The notes under the pieces are model-generated. The model did not search any database. It was not told the origin of the DNA and saw nothing but the letters and a program-made list of their open reading frames with translations. Made by a program: the position numbers and the translations under genes. Shown piece by piece: positions 21,592 through 25,309 of a stretch of DNA of 64,000 bases (the first letter of the stretch is position 1; each line of letters opens with the position of its first letter). Source of the stretch: Parapedobacter lycopersici (GTDB lineage Bacteria > Bacteroidota > Bacteroidia > Sphingobacteriales > Sphingobacteriaceae); contig NZ_JAMSLW010000001.1 of the NCBI RefSeq assembly GCF_024643285.1, positions 741,239 through 805,238 on the forward strand, written 5' to 3'.

Positions 21592-21599
21592 TAAGTTTG
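21592..21599 (+). promoter_or_regulatory. -7 promoter element of lat
   Basis: TAAGTTTG, a full match, 24 bases before the ATG at 21624. It overlaps the TTG at 21597, so that upstream start is unlikely. Confidence 0.6.
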
Positions 21600-21623
21600 G
21601 GTCTAACCATCCCGTACGAGGCC

Positions 21624-22955
21624 ATGTATAAACTGTCTGTATCCCCCAAACACGTACATGAAACCCTGGGCCGGCACATACTGGCCGATGGCTACGACAT
21701 TGTCCTCGACATGGATAAAAGCCAGGGTGTATGGATTTACGATGCCAAGCACGACCGCCGGCTGCTTGATTTCTTCACCTGCTTTGCTTCCGTGCCGCTG
21801 GGCTACAACCATCCGAAGATGAAAGACGATCCGGCGTTCGCCGCCAGCCTGCTCAACGCCGCGCTGACCAACCCATCCAATTCGGACGTATACACCCAGG
21901 AATATGCCCAGTTCGTAACCACATTCGAACGCGTGGCTACCCCCGCCTACCTCCCCCATGCCTTCTTCATTTCCGGGGGTGCACTGGCGGTAGAAAACGC
22001 ACTGAAAGCGGCCATGGACTGGAAAGTGCAGCAGAACTTCCAAAAAGGGTATTCACGGGAAAAAGGCACCAGCGTATTGCATTTCCAGCGGGCCTTTCAC
22101 GGCCGCTCCGGCTACACCCTGAGCCTCACCAACACGCAACCCGGAAAAACCAAGTGGTTTGCCAAGTTCGACTGGCCCCGGGTAAGTTCGCCCCACCTGG
22201 AATTTCCGCTGACCGAAGAAAACCTCCGGAATACCGAGCGGCGCGAGCGCGACACGATCGGCCAGATCAAGCGGGCATTTATGGACCATCCCGACGACAT
22301 CTGCGCCATCATCATTGAACCCATACAGGCCGAAGGCGGTGATCTTCACTTCCGCCGCGAGTTTATGGAACAACTGCGGATCCTTGCGGATGAAAATGAA
22401 GCGTTGCTGATCTACGATGAAATACAGACCGGTGTAGGGCTCACGGGCACATTCTGGTGCCACGAGCAGTTTGGCGACAGGGCGCGGCCCGACATCATTG
22501 CTTTCGGGAAAAAAATGCAGGTATGCGGCATACTGGCCGGTCCGCGCATTGATGAAATCGAAACCAATGTCTTTACCGTCGCCTCCCGCATCAATTCCAC
22601 CTGGGGCGGCAACCTGGCCGATATGGTACGCGCCACGAAGATGCTGGAAATCATCGAAGAAGACGGGCTGCTGGCCAATGTAGCACAGACCGGACAATAC
22701 CTCCAGCAGCAATTGCAGCAGCTTGCCGGCCGCCATCCGATGGTATCCGGCGTACGCGGGCGGGGCTTGCTGTGCGCCTTTGACCTTCCGGACAAAACGC
22801 TGCGCGATACGTTTCTAAAGAAAGGGATTGAATACGGCGCCCTGTTCCTTGGCTGCGGAGAACACGCCATCCGGTTCCGGCCCGCACTGATTGCCACAGA
22901 AGCGGATATTGACGCCGGCATGGCAATTGCCGATCGGGTTTTGTCCGCTATTTAG
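21624..22955 (+). CDS. lat: L-lysine 6-transaminase
   Basis: The start is the ATG at 21624, giving 443 residues (MYKLSVSPKHVHETLGRHIL). It is a class III, fold-type I aminotransferase. The block LLDFFTCFASVPLGYNHP is characteristic of lysine 6-aminotransferases; others are FISGGALAVENALKAA, AFHGRSGYTLSLTNT, IYDEIQTGVGLTG and FGKKMQVCG, where one of the adjacent lysines 296/297 binds PLP. The reaction moves the epsilon-amino group of lysine to 2-oxoglutarate, giving allysine/piperideine-6-carboxylate. No dehydrogenase partner is next to it, so the pathway end is not visible here. Confidence 0.9.
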   Translation: MYKLSVSPKHVHETLGRHILADGYDIVLDMDKSQGVWIYDAKHDRRLLDFFTCFASVPLGYNHPKMKDDPAFAASLLNAALTNPSNSDVYTQEYAQFVTTFERVATPAYLPHAFFISGGALAVENALKAAMDWKVQQNFQKGYSREKGTSVLHFQRAFHGRSGYTLSLTNTQPGKTKWFAKFDWPRVSSPHLEFPLTEENLRNTERRERDTIGQIKRAFMDHPDDICAIIIEPIQAEGGDLHFRREFMEQLRILADENEALLIYDEIQTGVGLTGTFWCHEQFGDRARPDIIAFGKKMQVCGILAGPRIDEIETNVFTVASRINSTWGGNLADMVRATKMLEIIEEDGLLANVAQTGQYLQQQLQQLAGRHPMVSGVRGRGLLCAFDLPDKTLRDTFLKKGIEYGALFLGCGEHAIRFRPALIATEADIDAGMAIADRVLSAI

Positions 22956-22963
22956 TACCTTTG
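22956..22963 (+). promoter_or_regulatory. -7 promoter element of the 22977 gene
   Basis: TACCTTTG, a full match, 13 bases before the ATG. It overlaps the lat stop codon region. Confidence 0.5.
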
Positions 22964-22976
22964 GCACATTTAGCTA

Positions 22977-23375
22977 ATGAATTCAACATACCGAAAGCTC
23001 CTAATTACTGCCGCCATTGTGCTGATCGCAGCGTTTATCCTAAAAGATATGCTTTTCCAGCCCGGTATCGGTGAATTACCGGGTAACTTTAACGAAGTTG
23101 CCTTTGTGCGCAATGAGCAGAATAAAGGCGGAATTATCCGGATTTATGCCATTTCCGTATCGGACACGACAAATGCCGCTTACCTGGCATGCGGCGACCT
23201 GATGCCCCATAACGAATACGGTAGCAAAACAACGGTTTATTTCTTTGAAAAAGGCAAACCCACGCCCGATGTGCTGCAACTGGATTCCCCGCATTTCGAT
23301 CAGCTCAAATACCACCCCGTTGCGGTATACATTAAAAACGAACAGGGCGTTGCCTCGCTTACGACAACGCCTTAG
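22977..23375 (+). CDS. Hypothetical membrane-anchored protein
   Basis: The 132-residue product has one N-terminal transmembrane or uncleaved signal segment (LLITAAIVLIAAFILKDMLF, residues 8-27) followed by a small beta-rich domain. I do not recognise the family. Distinctive pieces are FNEVAFVRNEQNKGGIIRIYA and VYFFEKGKPTPDVLQLD. The wording suggests an extracytoplasmic domain with several strands. It is supported by its own -7 box and ends just before the 11-bp repeat array. No function is assigned. Confidence 0.7.
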   Translation: MNSTYRKLLITAAIVLIAAFILKDMLFQPGIGELPGNFNEVAFVRNEQNKGGIIRIYAISVSDTTNAAYLACGDLMPHNEYGSKTTVYFFEKGKPTPDVLQLDSPHFDQLKYHPVAVYIKNEQGVASLTTTP

Positions 23376-23506
23376 TTATTTTTGGATATGTTGCTGTGGC
23401 TGGCTGCGGCTACCCAATGTCATTAGCCATAAGAACATTGGCTAATTCGTTCATAAGCCAGGCTTTAACGTTTCCATCAGCTTAGCTTATTGACCAGACG
23501 GAATTC

Positions 23507-23719
23507 TTCGACTCCCCTTCGAGTGTTGTTCGAGTCCGCTTCGACTCTTCTTCGAGACTTGTTCGACCCTTGTTCGAGTCGGCTTCGACCGCGCTTCGGG
23601 GCTGCTCGATATGCAATCCGTTGCGTTCCGAAGAAATCCGAAGGATTCCCGGGACAGTCCCGAATGAATCCCGAACAATTGTCGAAGCAGCCTGCAATAT
23701 CGGACGAAGCGGAGTCGAA
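23507..23719. repeat. 11-bp periodic TTCGA array with central orientation flip
   Basis: Nine tandem 11-bp units starting TTCG lie at 23507, 23518, 23529, 23540, 23551, 23562, 23573, 23584 and 23595 (for example TTCGAGTCCGC, TTCGACTCTTC, TTCGAGACTTG). After a centre of about 25 bp, the complementary core CGAA recurs at 23629, 23639, 23661, 23672, 23683, 23705 and 23716; degenerate units fill the 23650 and 23694 slots. The array is therefore about nine units forward and nine inverted. Because 11 is not a multiple of three, all frames show 11-residue repeats without stops, which explains several spurious ORFs. It lies between two convergent genes. I found no coding signal or flanking transposon features. 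Confidence 0.85.
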
Positions 23720-23801
23720 ACCGGCATTGTGGTTTTTTTACATTTAATTGGCTTTCGATATGCAGCAACCAATACCTAATTGAAAACCGTACCCATATTC
23801 A

Positions 23802-24251
23802 TTACCGCAGGCTAATTGTAGCGATTCCTGCTTGCTTTCCCCCTGTCGGCATTAATAGGGAGGTCGTATGATTAAACTGAGAAGTGAACTCAAGTGGCAC
23901 ATCATGCGTATAAAACTGGAGCTGTATCGGTTTAAGTTGAGAAAGGTCAAATCCTGGTATTTCAATTTCGCTTGCAATATTCGGGAAATTAAAAGCTTGC
24001 TGTTCCTGCGAAGCAAAAACAGCAACTTCGATATAGCCTTCTCCAGTGCCGGTATATGGCTTGTTTTCAAACAACACCCGGTAATAGTCGAATTCACCAC
24101 TGGCGTTCAGGTCAAAATCAGTAATATCCGGCTTAGTCACATTGGCCTGAAGATCCCAGGGTGTAATATCATCCGGGATACCCTGACGATAATAATTATT
24201 GAATTGTGTACGATCCTGGACGTAGGTAATAATGCCATTTAGGTCTTCCAC
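23802..24251 (-). CDS. C-terminal part of a frameshifted lipoprotein gene
   Basis: This frame can be opened only by a GTG at 24251, but it reads sensibly upstream of it (SGNSVDIFYPENLVED) back to the A6 run at 24293-24298, where it joins the lipoprotein gene. It holds 149 residues from the GTG, ending in LMPTGGKQAGIATISLR, with beta-strand-rich sequence and no domain I recognise. I interpret it as the distal end of one gene of about 502 codons, not an independent gene. Whether the shift is a mutation, a slippage switch or a sequencing error is open. Confidence 0.6.
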   Translation of the reverse strand: MEDLNGIITYVQDRTQFNNYYRQGIPDDITPWDLQANVTKPDITDFDLNASGEFDYYRVLFENKPYTGTGEGYIEVAVFASQEQQAFNFPNIASEIEIPGFDLSQLKPIQLQFYTHDVPLEFTSQFNHTTSLLMPTGGKQAGIATISLR

Positions 24252-25309
24252 CAGATTTTCTGGATAGAAAATATCAACGGAATTACCGGAAATTTTTTGT
24301 TTGCAAACGTATAGAACTCGTCGTAACCCCTGCTAACCTGACCATAAACGGTTATACTGGCATCAGTAGCACCTGCCGGTACCTGGATGGTTTGCTTCGA
24401 AGGAATGAGATTGGCCTGCGCAGCATCCAATTCTACCTTGGCACTACCTGCCGGAATATCGAATAAGCCGTACCGACCAGTGCCGTTTTGCTCGATGAGG
24501 AGCAGGCTTTTGCTGCCCGAGGTATATGGCAACGAATAATCATAATCCGGACTCACCGGAAATTGATAATAGAGGGTATTCGTACTCACCAGCATATGAT
24601 CGTATTCCGGCATATTTTTAACCGTGATTGGAATCGCCTCTTGATATTCATTCAAACGGCCTTTACCTGCCTCAAGGTTTTTGGCACTCAAGTGGGCTCC
24701 GCGCTTGATTTCCACAAAATATTCAATCTTAGGCAGCAGATCCGCTGAGGTAGACACGCGCGTCAGGTTGATTTTGTTGCCATTGAACGCTTCGGAAGGG
24801 TAGATGGATACGATGTTGTTATGTGTTCCGTCGTTAACAAAATTCGCACGGCCGACGATCTGCCCTATCGAATCCGTGATAAAATAAGCCGACGCATCAC
24901 CCCCGACTAACAAATCCCGGTCGATTTTGACCAACGCATTGCTGACAATCACACTCGCTGCCTGTTCCTTTTTATTACCGGCTTCATCGCTGACAACTAC
25001 CTTCAAATTATAGGTGCCATCCGGCAAATCCAGCGTATTCAAGCTTAGGGAAAGTGAATCCGCCGCTGCTGAAGCTACTAATTCGTCATTGGCAAACACT
25101 TCGATGCTTTTGATGCCCGAGCTATGCTCCGCTTTAATTTCTGCTGTCAGGGTATTGCGCAGGGTATCGTTTGATTTGATCCCGGTGACAGTCAATCCAA
25201 TGGGTGTTAAATCCGGGGGATCTACCTGATTGATTTCTTTGCTTTTGCTGCAGGAAAGCGCGAAGGCCAGCGCCGACAGGCACAGCGTACTTGTTGTAAC
25301 TCGTTTCAT
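24239..25309 (-). CDS. Surface lipoprotein with Ig-like domain (frameshifted near its C-terminus)
   Basis: The 356-residue product starts MKRVTTSTLCLSALAFALSC, a signal peptidase II signal with the lipid-modified cysteine in LSCSK. Residues 40-130 look like an Ig-like repeat (IKSIEVFANDELV and VVSDEAGNKKEQA), then a longer beta-rich region without a recognised domain. After YTFANKK the frame runs through a short unlikely tail to a stop at 24239, while the -1 frame continues the protein. The gene is probably on the cell surface or in the periplasm; its substrate is unknown. The sequence appears richer in A+T than its neighbours. I see no clear -7 box upstream. Confidence 0.7.
   Translation of the reverse strand: MKRVTTSTLCLSALAFALSCSKSKEINQVDPPDLTPIGLTVTGIKSNDTLRNTLTAEIKAEHSSGIKSIEVFANDELVASAAADSLSLSLNTLDLPDGTYNLKVVVSDEAGNKKEQAASVIVSNALVKIDRDLLVGGDASAYFITDSIGQIVGRANFVNDGTHNNIVSIYPSEAFNGNKINLTRVSTSADLLPKIEYFVEIKRGAHLSAKNLEAGKGRLNEYQEAIPITVKNMPEYDHMLVSTNTLYYQFPVSPDYDYSLPYTSGSKSLLLIEQNGTGRYGLFDIPAGSAKVELDAAQANLIPSKQTIQVPAGATDASITVYGQVSRGYDEFYTFANKKFPVIPLIFSIQKIWWKT
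24293..24298 (-). other. A6 homopolymer at the lipoprotein frameshift
   Basis: On the minus strand the codons are AAC AAA AAA TTT. One extra A would give AAC AAA AAA ATT TCC GGT and fuse the two reading frames into one protein of about 502 residues. Confidence 0.65.

Follow-up and report, generated by a model that had tools for sequence, protein, structure and literature searches.

The window analysed here is a 64-kb stretch of the Parapedobacter lycopersici genome, in which a repeat array with two opposed arms lies between two convergent genes. The features in and around this array, with their positions in the window, are as follows.

21597..22955, plus strand: class-III aminotransferase gene, left of the array (Pfam Aminotran_3)
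22977..23375, plus strand: reading frame of 132 aa, the immediate left neighbour of the array, without a match in the Pfam search
23507..23598, plus orientation: strong arm, nine TTCG cores at 11-bp steps (from the core positions and from the core columns of 18 copies)
23599..23628, no strand: centre of 30 bp with the palindrome-like short core TGCAATCCGTTGCG; such a centre is present in 18 of 22 copies in this genome
23629..23719, minus orientation: weak arm with seven exact copies of the CGAA core, which follow the 11-bp grid once a first step of 10 bp is passed
23733..23739, no strand: run of seven T just outside the array (read from the sequence)
23802..25309, minus strand: convergent gene right of the array, split between the overlapping frames 24239-25309, in which bacterial Ig-like domains were matched, and 23802-24251, in which nothing was

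The nine TTCG cores of the strong arm start at 23507, 23518, 23529, 23540, 23551, 23562, 23573, 23584 and 23595, every step being 11 bp, exactly as the original prediction had read them. Across a gap of 30 bp, measured from the innermost TTCG to the innermost CGAA, the weak arm follows with CGAA cores that start at 23629, 23639, 23661, 23672, 23683, 23705 and 23716, in steps of 10, 22, 11, 11, 22 and 11 bp; the count of exact cores in this arm is seven, and the "about nine" inverted units first proposed must be lowered to that number. The two arms are 71% complementary across 59 nt. Elsewhere in the window, the longest 11-bp run of TTCG or CGAA is a single unit, and among 200 first-order Markov copies of the window the longest run was one unit in 9 copies, two in 189 and three in 2. 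Simulated windows reach three units at most, against nine in register in the array, and the periodicity first observed is confirmed. When 80 non-overlapping 800-bp stretches of the window were searched for any 4-mer that occurs at least four times in ten 11-bp steps, a single stretch was returned, which is the one that holds the array.

We take the aminotransferase to resemble lysine 6-aminotransferase. The gene on the other side of the array (23802-25309) looks frameshifted, given its two overlapping frames, and DNA relatives of the 132-aa frame were found elsewhere in two of the genomes searched, G005 (Parapedobacter indicus RK1 by the identity of its stretches) and G008. The aminotransferase locus is kept in 6 of the 8 congeners searched. 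In these, the next conserved gene, presumably encoding IMP dehydrogenase, stands close behind the aminotransferase orthologue, with one extra gene between them in two of the 6. No array follows the orthologue in any of the six, nor any 4-mer chain of at least four units, and the block between 22955 and 25449 is missing at the same place. The array is therefore not conserved in position, the window site being empty in all six congeners that have the gene block.

The array belongs to a dispersed family. DNA searches of the P. lycopersici genome gave 25 matches to it, which merged into 22 distinct places, and the search for further 11-bp arrays that had been suggested at the outset yielded more in relatives, as described below. 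The four-unit TTCG pattern occurs 97+78 times in the genome, compared with 0+2 occurrences of a reversed control pattern, and a search with a six-unit pattern revealed no further place among the matches listed. The window-type centre is lacking in four of the 22 copies. The other 18 were aligned on the centre without gaps, and over seven consecutive units 27 of the 28 core columns proved identical in all copies, as did 2 of the 42 spacer columns; the 7-nt spacers show G/C or A/G exchanges at fixed positions. Cores and spacing that stay constant while the spacers vary are the mark of selection on core and spacing rather than of decay, and the proposal that spacing and core are what is kept is borne out by core columns that are almost invariant over 18 diverged copies. 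The opposed arms recur, with array ends that differ by whole units between copies. A constant total length of the element, suggested by eye, was rejected (p 0.73).

The genes that flank the 22 copies are convergent in 5 cases, co-directional in 12 and divergent in 5, an arrangement that looks random (orientations come from a rough table of open reading frames classed by hand, and at five loci a frame runs through the array). This near-random order suggests that arrays standing alone are not simply promoters or terminators. It is also odd for an ordinary operator, and to that extent counts against the reading of the array as a binding platform that we develop below. By eye, some arrays (L002 and L004 in P. 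lycopersici; L059, L106 and L113-L115 in congeners) lie shortly upstream of genes that resemble those for TonB-dependent receptors (SusC-like) or redoxins, and near some of these receptor- or redoxin-like genes the frame stays open through the array.

The two arms are set in helical phase with one another. We collected 95 bipolar elements (at least three left and at least two right cores, six in all, with duplicate loci omitted), whose innermost cores are mostly separated by 8-9, 18, 29-30 or 40 bp. In 84 of the 95 elements this gap fits a whole number of 11-bp steps to within 2 bp, where 5/11 (45%) would be expected (binomial p 2e-18), as it does in 56 of the 67 that came from a scan of named genomes (p 2e-10), although the elements in this test are not all independent.

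Arrays of the same kind are widespread among relatives. The four-unit TTCG pattern was found in 11 of 60 genomes (P. lycopersici included) and in 20 of 120 genomes, with patchy presence among the congeners. The scan of named genomes gave at least 119 array stretches, at least 94 of them with titles naming Bacteroidota (counted by hand), from genera and groups that include Pedobacter, Sphingobacterium, Daejeonella, Chryseobacterium, Flavobacterium and Bacteroidales; the 25 of the 119 stretches listed whose titles do not name Bacteroidota may reflect chance or coding sequence. Among viral contigs, 77 of the 80 entries listed contain the four-unit pattern once.

In some relatives the array is located just upstream of a DUF6266 gene and has a small HTH_17 gene on its other side, and other DUF6266 genes have two-armed 11-bp arrays with a TACC core and a different adjacent HTH gene. 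We examined this neighbourhood at 90 distinct HTH_17 loci obtained by profile searches over 120 and 301 genomes (mostly the best-scoring places, with identical domains merged; in one search at most 21 candidates per genome were scored). A count blind to the core, which registered identical 4-mers in ten 11-bp steps within 800 bp downstream of the HTH, reached at least 6 of 10 at 34 of these 90 loci, with 6 to 10 units each, the profiles having been seeded partly with HTHs already found beside arrays; 21 of the 34 belong to g13 and g16, genera from which no array-adjacent seed protein came. The remaining 56 loci had no array of at least six units. In the upstream control, comprising the 800 bp that end 150 bp before the HTH domain, none of the 90 loci reached 4 of 10, and downstream the count never exceeded 4 at periods of 8, 9, 13 and 14 bp or 5 at periods of 10 and 12 bp. 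The 34 arrays start close behind the HTH stop codon (median 74 bp, largest distance 319 bp), and both orientations are present in 23 of them. A DUF6266 gene was included in the fetched locus at 31 of the 34 loci with an array, compared with 9 of the 56 without. The HTH proteins match Pfam HTH_17, some of them under the cut-off. Among the 119 listed stretches of the named-genome scan (up to 8 kb each), one had an HTH match and seven had a DUF6266 gene, with 117 to 352 bp between gene and array.

DUF6266 itself was considered as a DNA binder and rejected, as its predicted fold matches fibronectin III. DUF6266 is a multi-copy family present in 18 of 41 genomes, with up to 19 copies in congeners (G003) and one in P. 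lycopersici; in G002, 12 copies occur in a genome that lacks TTCG arrays. By eye, a palindrome, TACCGGTA, was noted upstream of DUF6266 in 11 of 20 regions (L130, L131, L133, L135, L136, L138-L142 and L144), mostly shortly after a promoter word similar to TATGTTTG.

At the array-adjacent loci, the type of the HTH goes with the core of the array. All 18 TTCG arrays accompany proteins whose second helix reads Y[Y/F]R and whose wing has PR (A-type), and all 17 TACC arrays accompany proteins with [Y/L][K/R]R and without the wing arginine (B-type). Alignment columns 24 (Y/F versus K/R) and 35 (R versus L/M/I/V) each split the two sets at 35 of 35 loci, and with six more columns they make eight that do so; this comparison takes in L400 (5 of 10 units, so that the TTCG set holds one 5-unit array) and leaves out L409 and L479 (other cores, 5 units). 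A tree of the HTH domains built without columns 24 and 35 needs two core changes, with one independent pair on the starred branches, which makes the helix-core pattern consistent but supported by few independent contrasts. Across 120 genomes, TTCG arrays (at least five matches) are associated with A-type HTH genes (Fisher p 6e-7); outside the genus of P. lycopersici the association is not significant (p 0.11).

P. lycopersici carries arrays of the TTCG type only (four-unit TACC pattern, 0+0) and, at the thresholds used, has one HTH match, G000:C16:379323-379505, with the motifs YFR and PRR. The gene lies in a cluster with a histidine kinase, a LytTR regulator, one DUF6266 and a DUF5675-like gene, the last named by its resemblance to proteins of relatives. 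No array of at least four units was found beside it, and the 22 array loci of this genome (2-3 kb each) gave no HTH or DUF6266 match, which makes these arrays solo sites. The AlphaFold2 model of the HTH (99 aa, mean pLDDT 81) has a long N-terminal helix. Foldseek matched the model to RacA-DNA, BldC-DNA, Xis, pSK1 Par and RdfS (best E 0.03, none below 0.001; probability up to 1.00), and numerous domains of the MerR type came up in a structure comparison, the highest Z being 7.8, a middling score by the tool's own note; a profile search found BldC at E 0.009. These predictions suggest that the protein encoded next to the arrays, whose partnership with them we infer from adjacency, is a small winged-helix protein of the MerR-like kind that carries no effector domain.

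Together, these observations lead us to favour, with a probability of roughly 60%, the reading that the array is a two-armed platform to which an HTH_17 protein would bind as a head-to-tail filament, with one subunit per turn. A multi-site protein-binding platform was among the roles proposed at the outset, and core constancy, helical phasing and the adjacency, in relatives, of HTH_17 genes with matching helix type all argue for it at the level of sequence. Given the HTH-adjacent arrays of relatives, in which protein type is linked to core word, the array probably serves as a docking track for a protein filament. In the mechanism that we propose, small HTH_17 subunits of the MerR-like winged-helix kind would assemble head to tail, one per helix turn, each of them reading one TTCG core and all on the same face of the DNA. 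The spacing of one turn is what a filament like those of BldC or RdfS would need, by analogy. At the centre, where polarity flips, two opposite filaments might meet or start in helical register. The window copy would be a solo site, one of 22 over the chromosome, with the genome's one strong member of the HTH family as the candidate binder; in many relatives, the HTH gene has an array immediately behind it, with TTCG or TACC as the core, and DUF6266 comes next. A filament bound at solo sites could silence or regulate genes, or could organise the chromosome. Several of the results given above weigh against this reading: the 56 of 90 HTH loci that lack an array of at least six units, the HTH gene of P. 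lycopersici that has none of at least four units beside it, the single HTH match among the 119 stretches of the named-genome scan, the few independent contrasts behind the helix-core pattern, and the association that loses significance outside the genus.

A more far-reaching version of this reading, which we think unlikely, is that the arrays form a chromosome-wide two-armed filament system of Bacteroidota, in which HTH_17 proteins with a helix code would polymerise from scattered bipolar arrays and organise or silence the chromosome. Y[Y/F]R would then read TTCG, KR or RR would read TACC, and others would perhaps read TCAC; paralogues would be encoded beside their own arrays, a few residues would suffice to change the code, and the arrays would be roughly evenly spaced. 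Along six large contigs, the 22 arrays are more evenly spaced than random (CV 0.56, p 0.013), with a smallest interval of 41.8 kb (p 0.0015), both statistics having been picked after the positions were seen. Such even spacing is a hint that would fit a chromosome-organising role.

Just as unlikely, in our estimate, is a MITE- or REP-like selfish repeat, whose 11-bp cores would be the leftover of a transposase-binding end or of tandem growth and would have no user in the host now. The 22 dispersed copies, 18 of which share a centre and have alignable units, speak for this possibility, as do the empty window site in the six congeners and the patchy occurrence among congeners. In this respect, the initial suggestion of a MITE-like element is borne out in part; the target-site duplication that would complete it was not found in the 18 copies, whose mean best flanking direct repeat is 1.61, compared with 1.68 in controls (the left ends of L007, L012 and L017 were misplaced in this test). 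Because the copies have diverged, old target duplications could have been lost. However, neutral copies should lose their cores as fast as their spacers, and here the cores are kept; in addition, arrays with another core have the same architecture and adjoin HTH genes.

Slightly less probable again is that the arrays are bound by a different protein, for instance some nucleoid protein, one of the ribbon-helix-helix kind, or the response regulator of LytTR type that the cluster encodes. LytTR and histidine kinase genes adjoin the HTH/DUF6266 cluster in relatives as well as in P. lycopersici, and three genomes carry TTCG arrays without an A-type HTH: G078 has 15 four-unit matches and no HTH match even at E 0.01, while G071 (39 matches) and G080 (7 matches) have weak HTH matches of other types only. 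Further mismatches are seen in G001, G006 and G022 (Olivibacter sp. XZL3, by the identity of its stretches), with TACC arrays and no B-type HTH, in G026, with an A-type HTH and no TTCG array, and in G007, with a B-type HTH that has no adjacent array. All these mismatches count against the HTH filament reading and mean that either several proteins read the arrays or the arrays outlive their protein. It is the HTH gene, however, that the array directly follows at 34 loci, whereas the neighbouring regulator varies, being of the LytTR type in L520 and L521 and of the LuxR type in L523, with none found at L522, where one upstream gene was tested, or at L524, where three were (one to three genes were tested per locus). 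The match between helix type and core likewise argues against another binder.

We consider it improbable that the array acts through RNA, as a transcribed long hairpin that serves as a bidirectional terminator or a structural RNA. The window copy, flanked by convergent genes and followed by a T-run, does fold better than its shuffles (z -2.8); the P. lycopersici copies show a weak preference for their own arm in a chimera test (p 0.02), and pooled over unit pairs the matched units of the two arms are somewhat more alike than unmatched ones (0.468 versus 0.412), a tendency shown by 8 of 13 P. lycopersici elements. Taken per element, however, no tendency to pair is seen, since among 66 elements the difference between matched and unmatched units is -0.003, with 29 up and 32 down (Wilcoxon p 0.66). 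Convergent genes flank just 5 of the 22 copies. An Rfam search of 22900-24300 gave no match above the gathering score, and of the two sites listed by a terminator scan of 23300-23900, one is weak and falls within the array; a promoter scan revealed nothing telling. The suggestion of a folded RNA that blocks convergent transcription is thus disfavoured, and helical register without clear arm pairing points to a protein on double-stranded DNA. A gene for a protein with 11-residue repeats, whether live or, as suggested early on, decayed, can be discounted almost entirely, because no frame is open in all 18 copies (the best of six is open in 17, the others in 12 to 16) and the core stays constant whichever of the three codon phases it falls in. 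Long open frames do pass through several copies, such as one of 626 aa in L002, and would be explained by a motif that forms few stop codons.

Returning to the filament platform, several known systems resemble it in part. The Par domain of pSK1 is a structural match of the HTH model, and parC centromeres consist of tandem repeats one helical turn apart that are bound by a multimer. ParR/parC and pSK1 Par systems are plasmid-borne and lie next to a ParM-type or par gene, whereas the arrays described here are dispersed along large contigs of the chromosome. Structures of RacA from Bacillus (5i44 and 5i41) are the top Foldseek match of the HTH model; RacA binds scattered chromosomal sites, which are not known to be 11-bp arrays. 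The statements on published work that follow rest on excerpts of the papers cited. RacA is described as binding as a symmetric dimer (PMC5859096). In the same source, BldC of Streptomyces forms head-to-tail multimers on direct repeats of varying number, the repeat being the 9-bp AATTNNNNC, with 2 to 4 subunits per site (PMC5859096). The HTH studied here is, like BldC, a small MerR-like winged helix (Foldseek probability 1.00 and a profile match to BldC chains), and the arrays resemble BldC sites in that a variable number of direct repeats follow one another at a spacing of about one turn. They differ in having TTCG or TACC cores at 11 bp in place of the 9-bp repeat of the excerpted description, at least six units and often two opposed arms, and the HTH model differs in its long N-terminal helix. 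With such cores, the array may work like a BldC site and is not one.

RdfS forms a head-to-tail winged-helix filament with about one molecule per 10 bp (PMC11963761), and the array-adjacent HTH is similar to RdfS/Xis excisionases in its HTH_17-type winged helix and its fold match. According to the excerpt, RdfS lacks a clear consensus site and acts together with an integrase (PMC11963761); among the few genes tested next to arrays, none encoded an integrase. BrickBuilt, with 19 intergenic copies in the Bacteroidota genome of Porphyromonas gingivalis, is likewise a scattered tandem repeat and has been called MITE-like (PMC4596501). Its 23-nt direct repeats lie between unlike leader and tail segments, in contrast to the present arrays, and the excerpted account describes neither opposed arms nor an HTH partner for it (PMC4596501). 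In literature searches on DUF6266, 11-bp or intergenic repeats of Bacteroidetes, repeats of Pedobacter or Sphingobacteriaceae and BldC-like direct repeats, the matches listed do not describe these arrays, for which other wording may exist. BldC-type sites are the nearest in kind, and the two-armed, scattered and core-switching form appears to be new.

Arrays of one-turn spacing with an adjacent small HTH gene offer a system for reading the specificity of protein-DNA recognition, with two core types, two helix types and dozens of natural pairs. If the proposed binding is true, head-to-tail winged-helix filaments would extend from BldC, RdfS and Xis to a large family of Bacteroidota, opposed two-armed sites would be added to their repertoire, and a class of intergenic repeats would be explained.

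Other repeats were noted in the course of this work. Downstream of another HTH_17 gene (L427, in G007) lies a large tandem repeat of about 187 bp per unit, rich in CCCC and off the 11-bp grid; a longer-repeat version of the array beside the HTH genes L426 and L427 was rejected on account of this spacing and was not counted. Arrays of a second kind, in which cores such as GTCAAA, GGACA, GGCCA or TGGCA recur every 10 bp, were observed, partly by eye, in several relatives, either upstream of DUF6266 or beside an 11-bp array (L129, L130, L135, L142, L139, L098-L102 and L409). In L098 and L099 (G025) and in L060 (G005), CCAC and CTTGG recur by eye at steps of about 11 bp near TTCG arrays. A third core, TCAC, occurs at 11-bp steps in L535 and L540 (G071), with 6 and 4 of 10 units, respectively; an HTH_17-like frame with a weak match stands upstream of these two arrays, at a distance of 384-385 bp, and a GGTCAAA array of 10-bp steps follows them.
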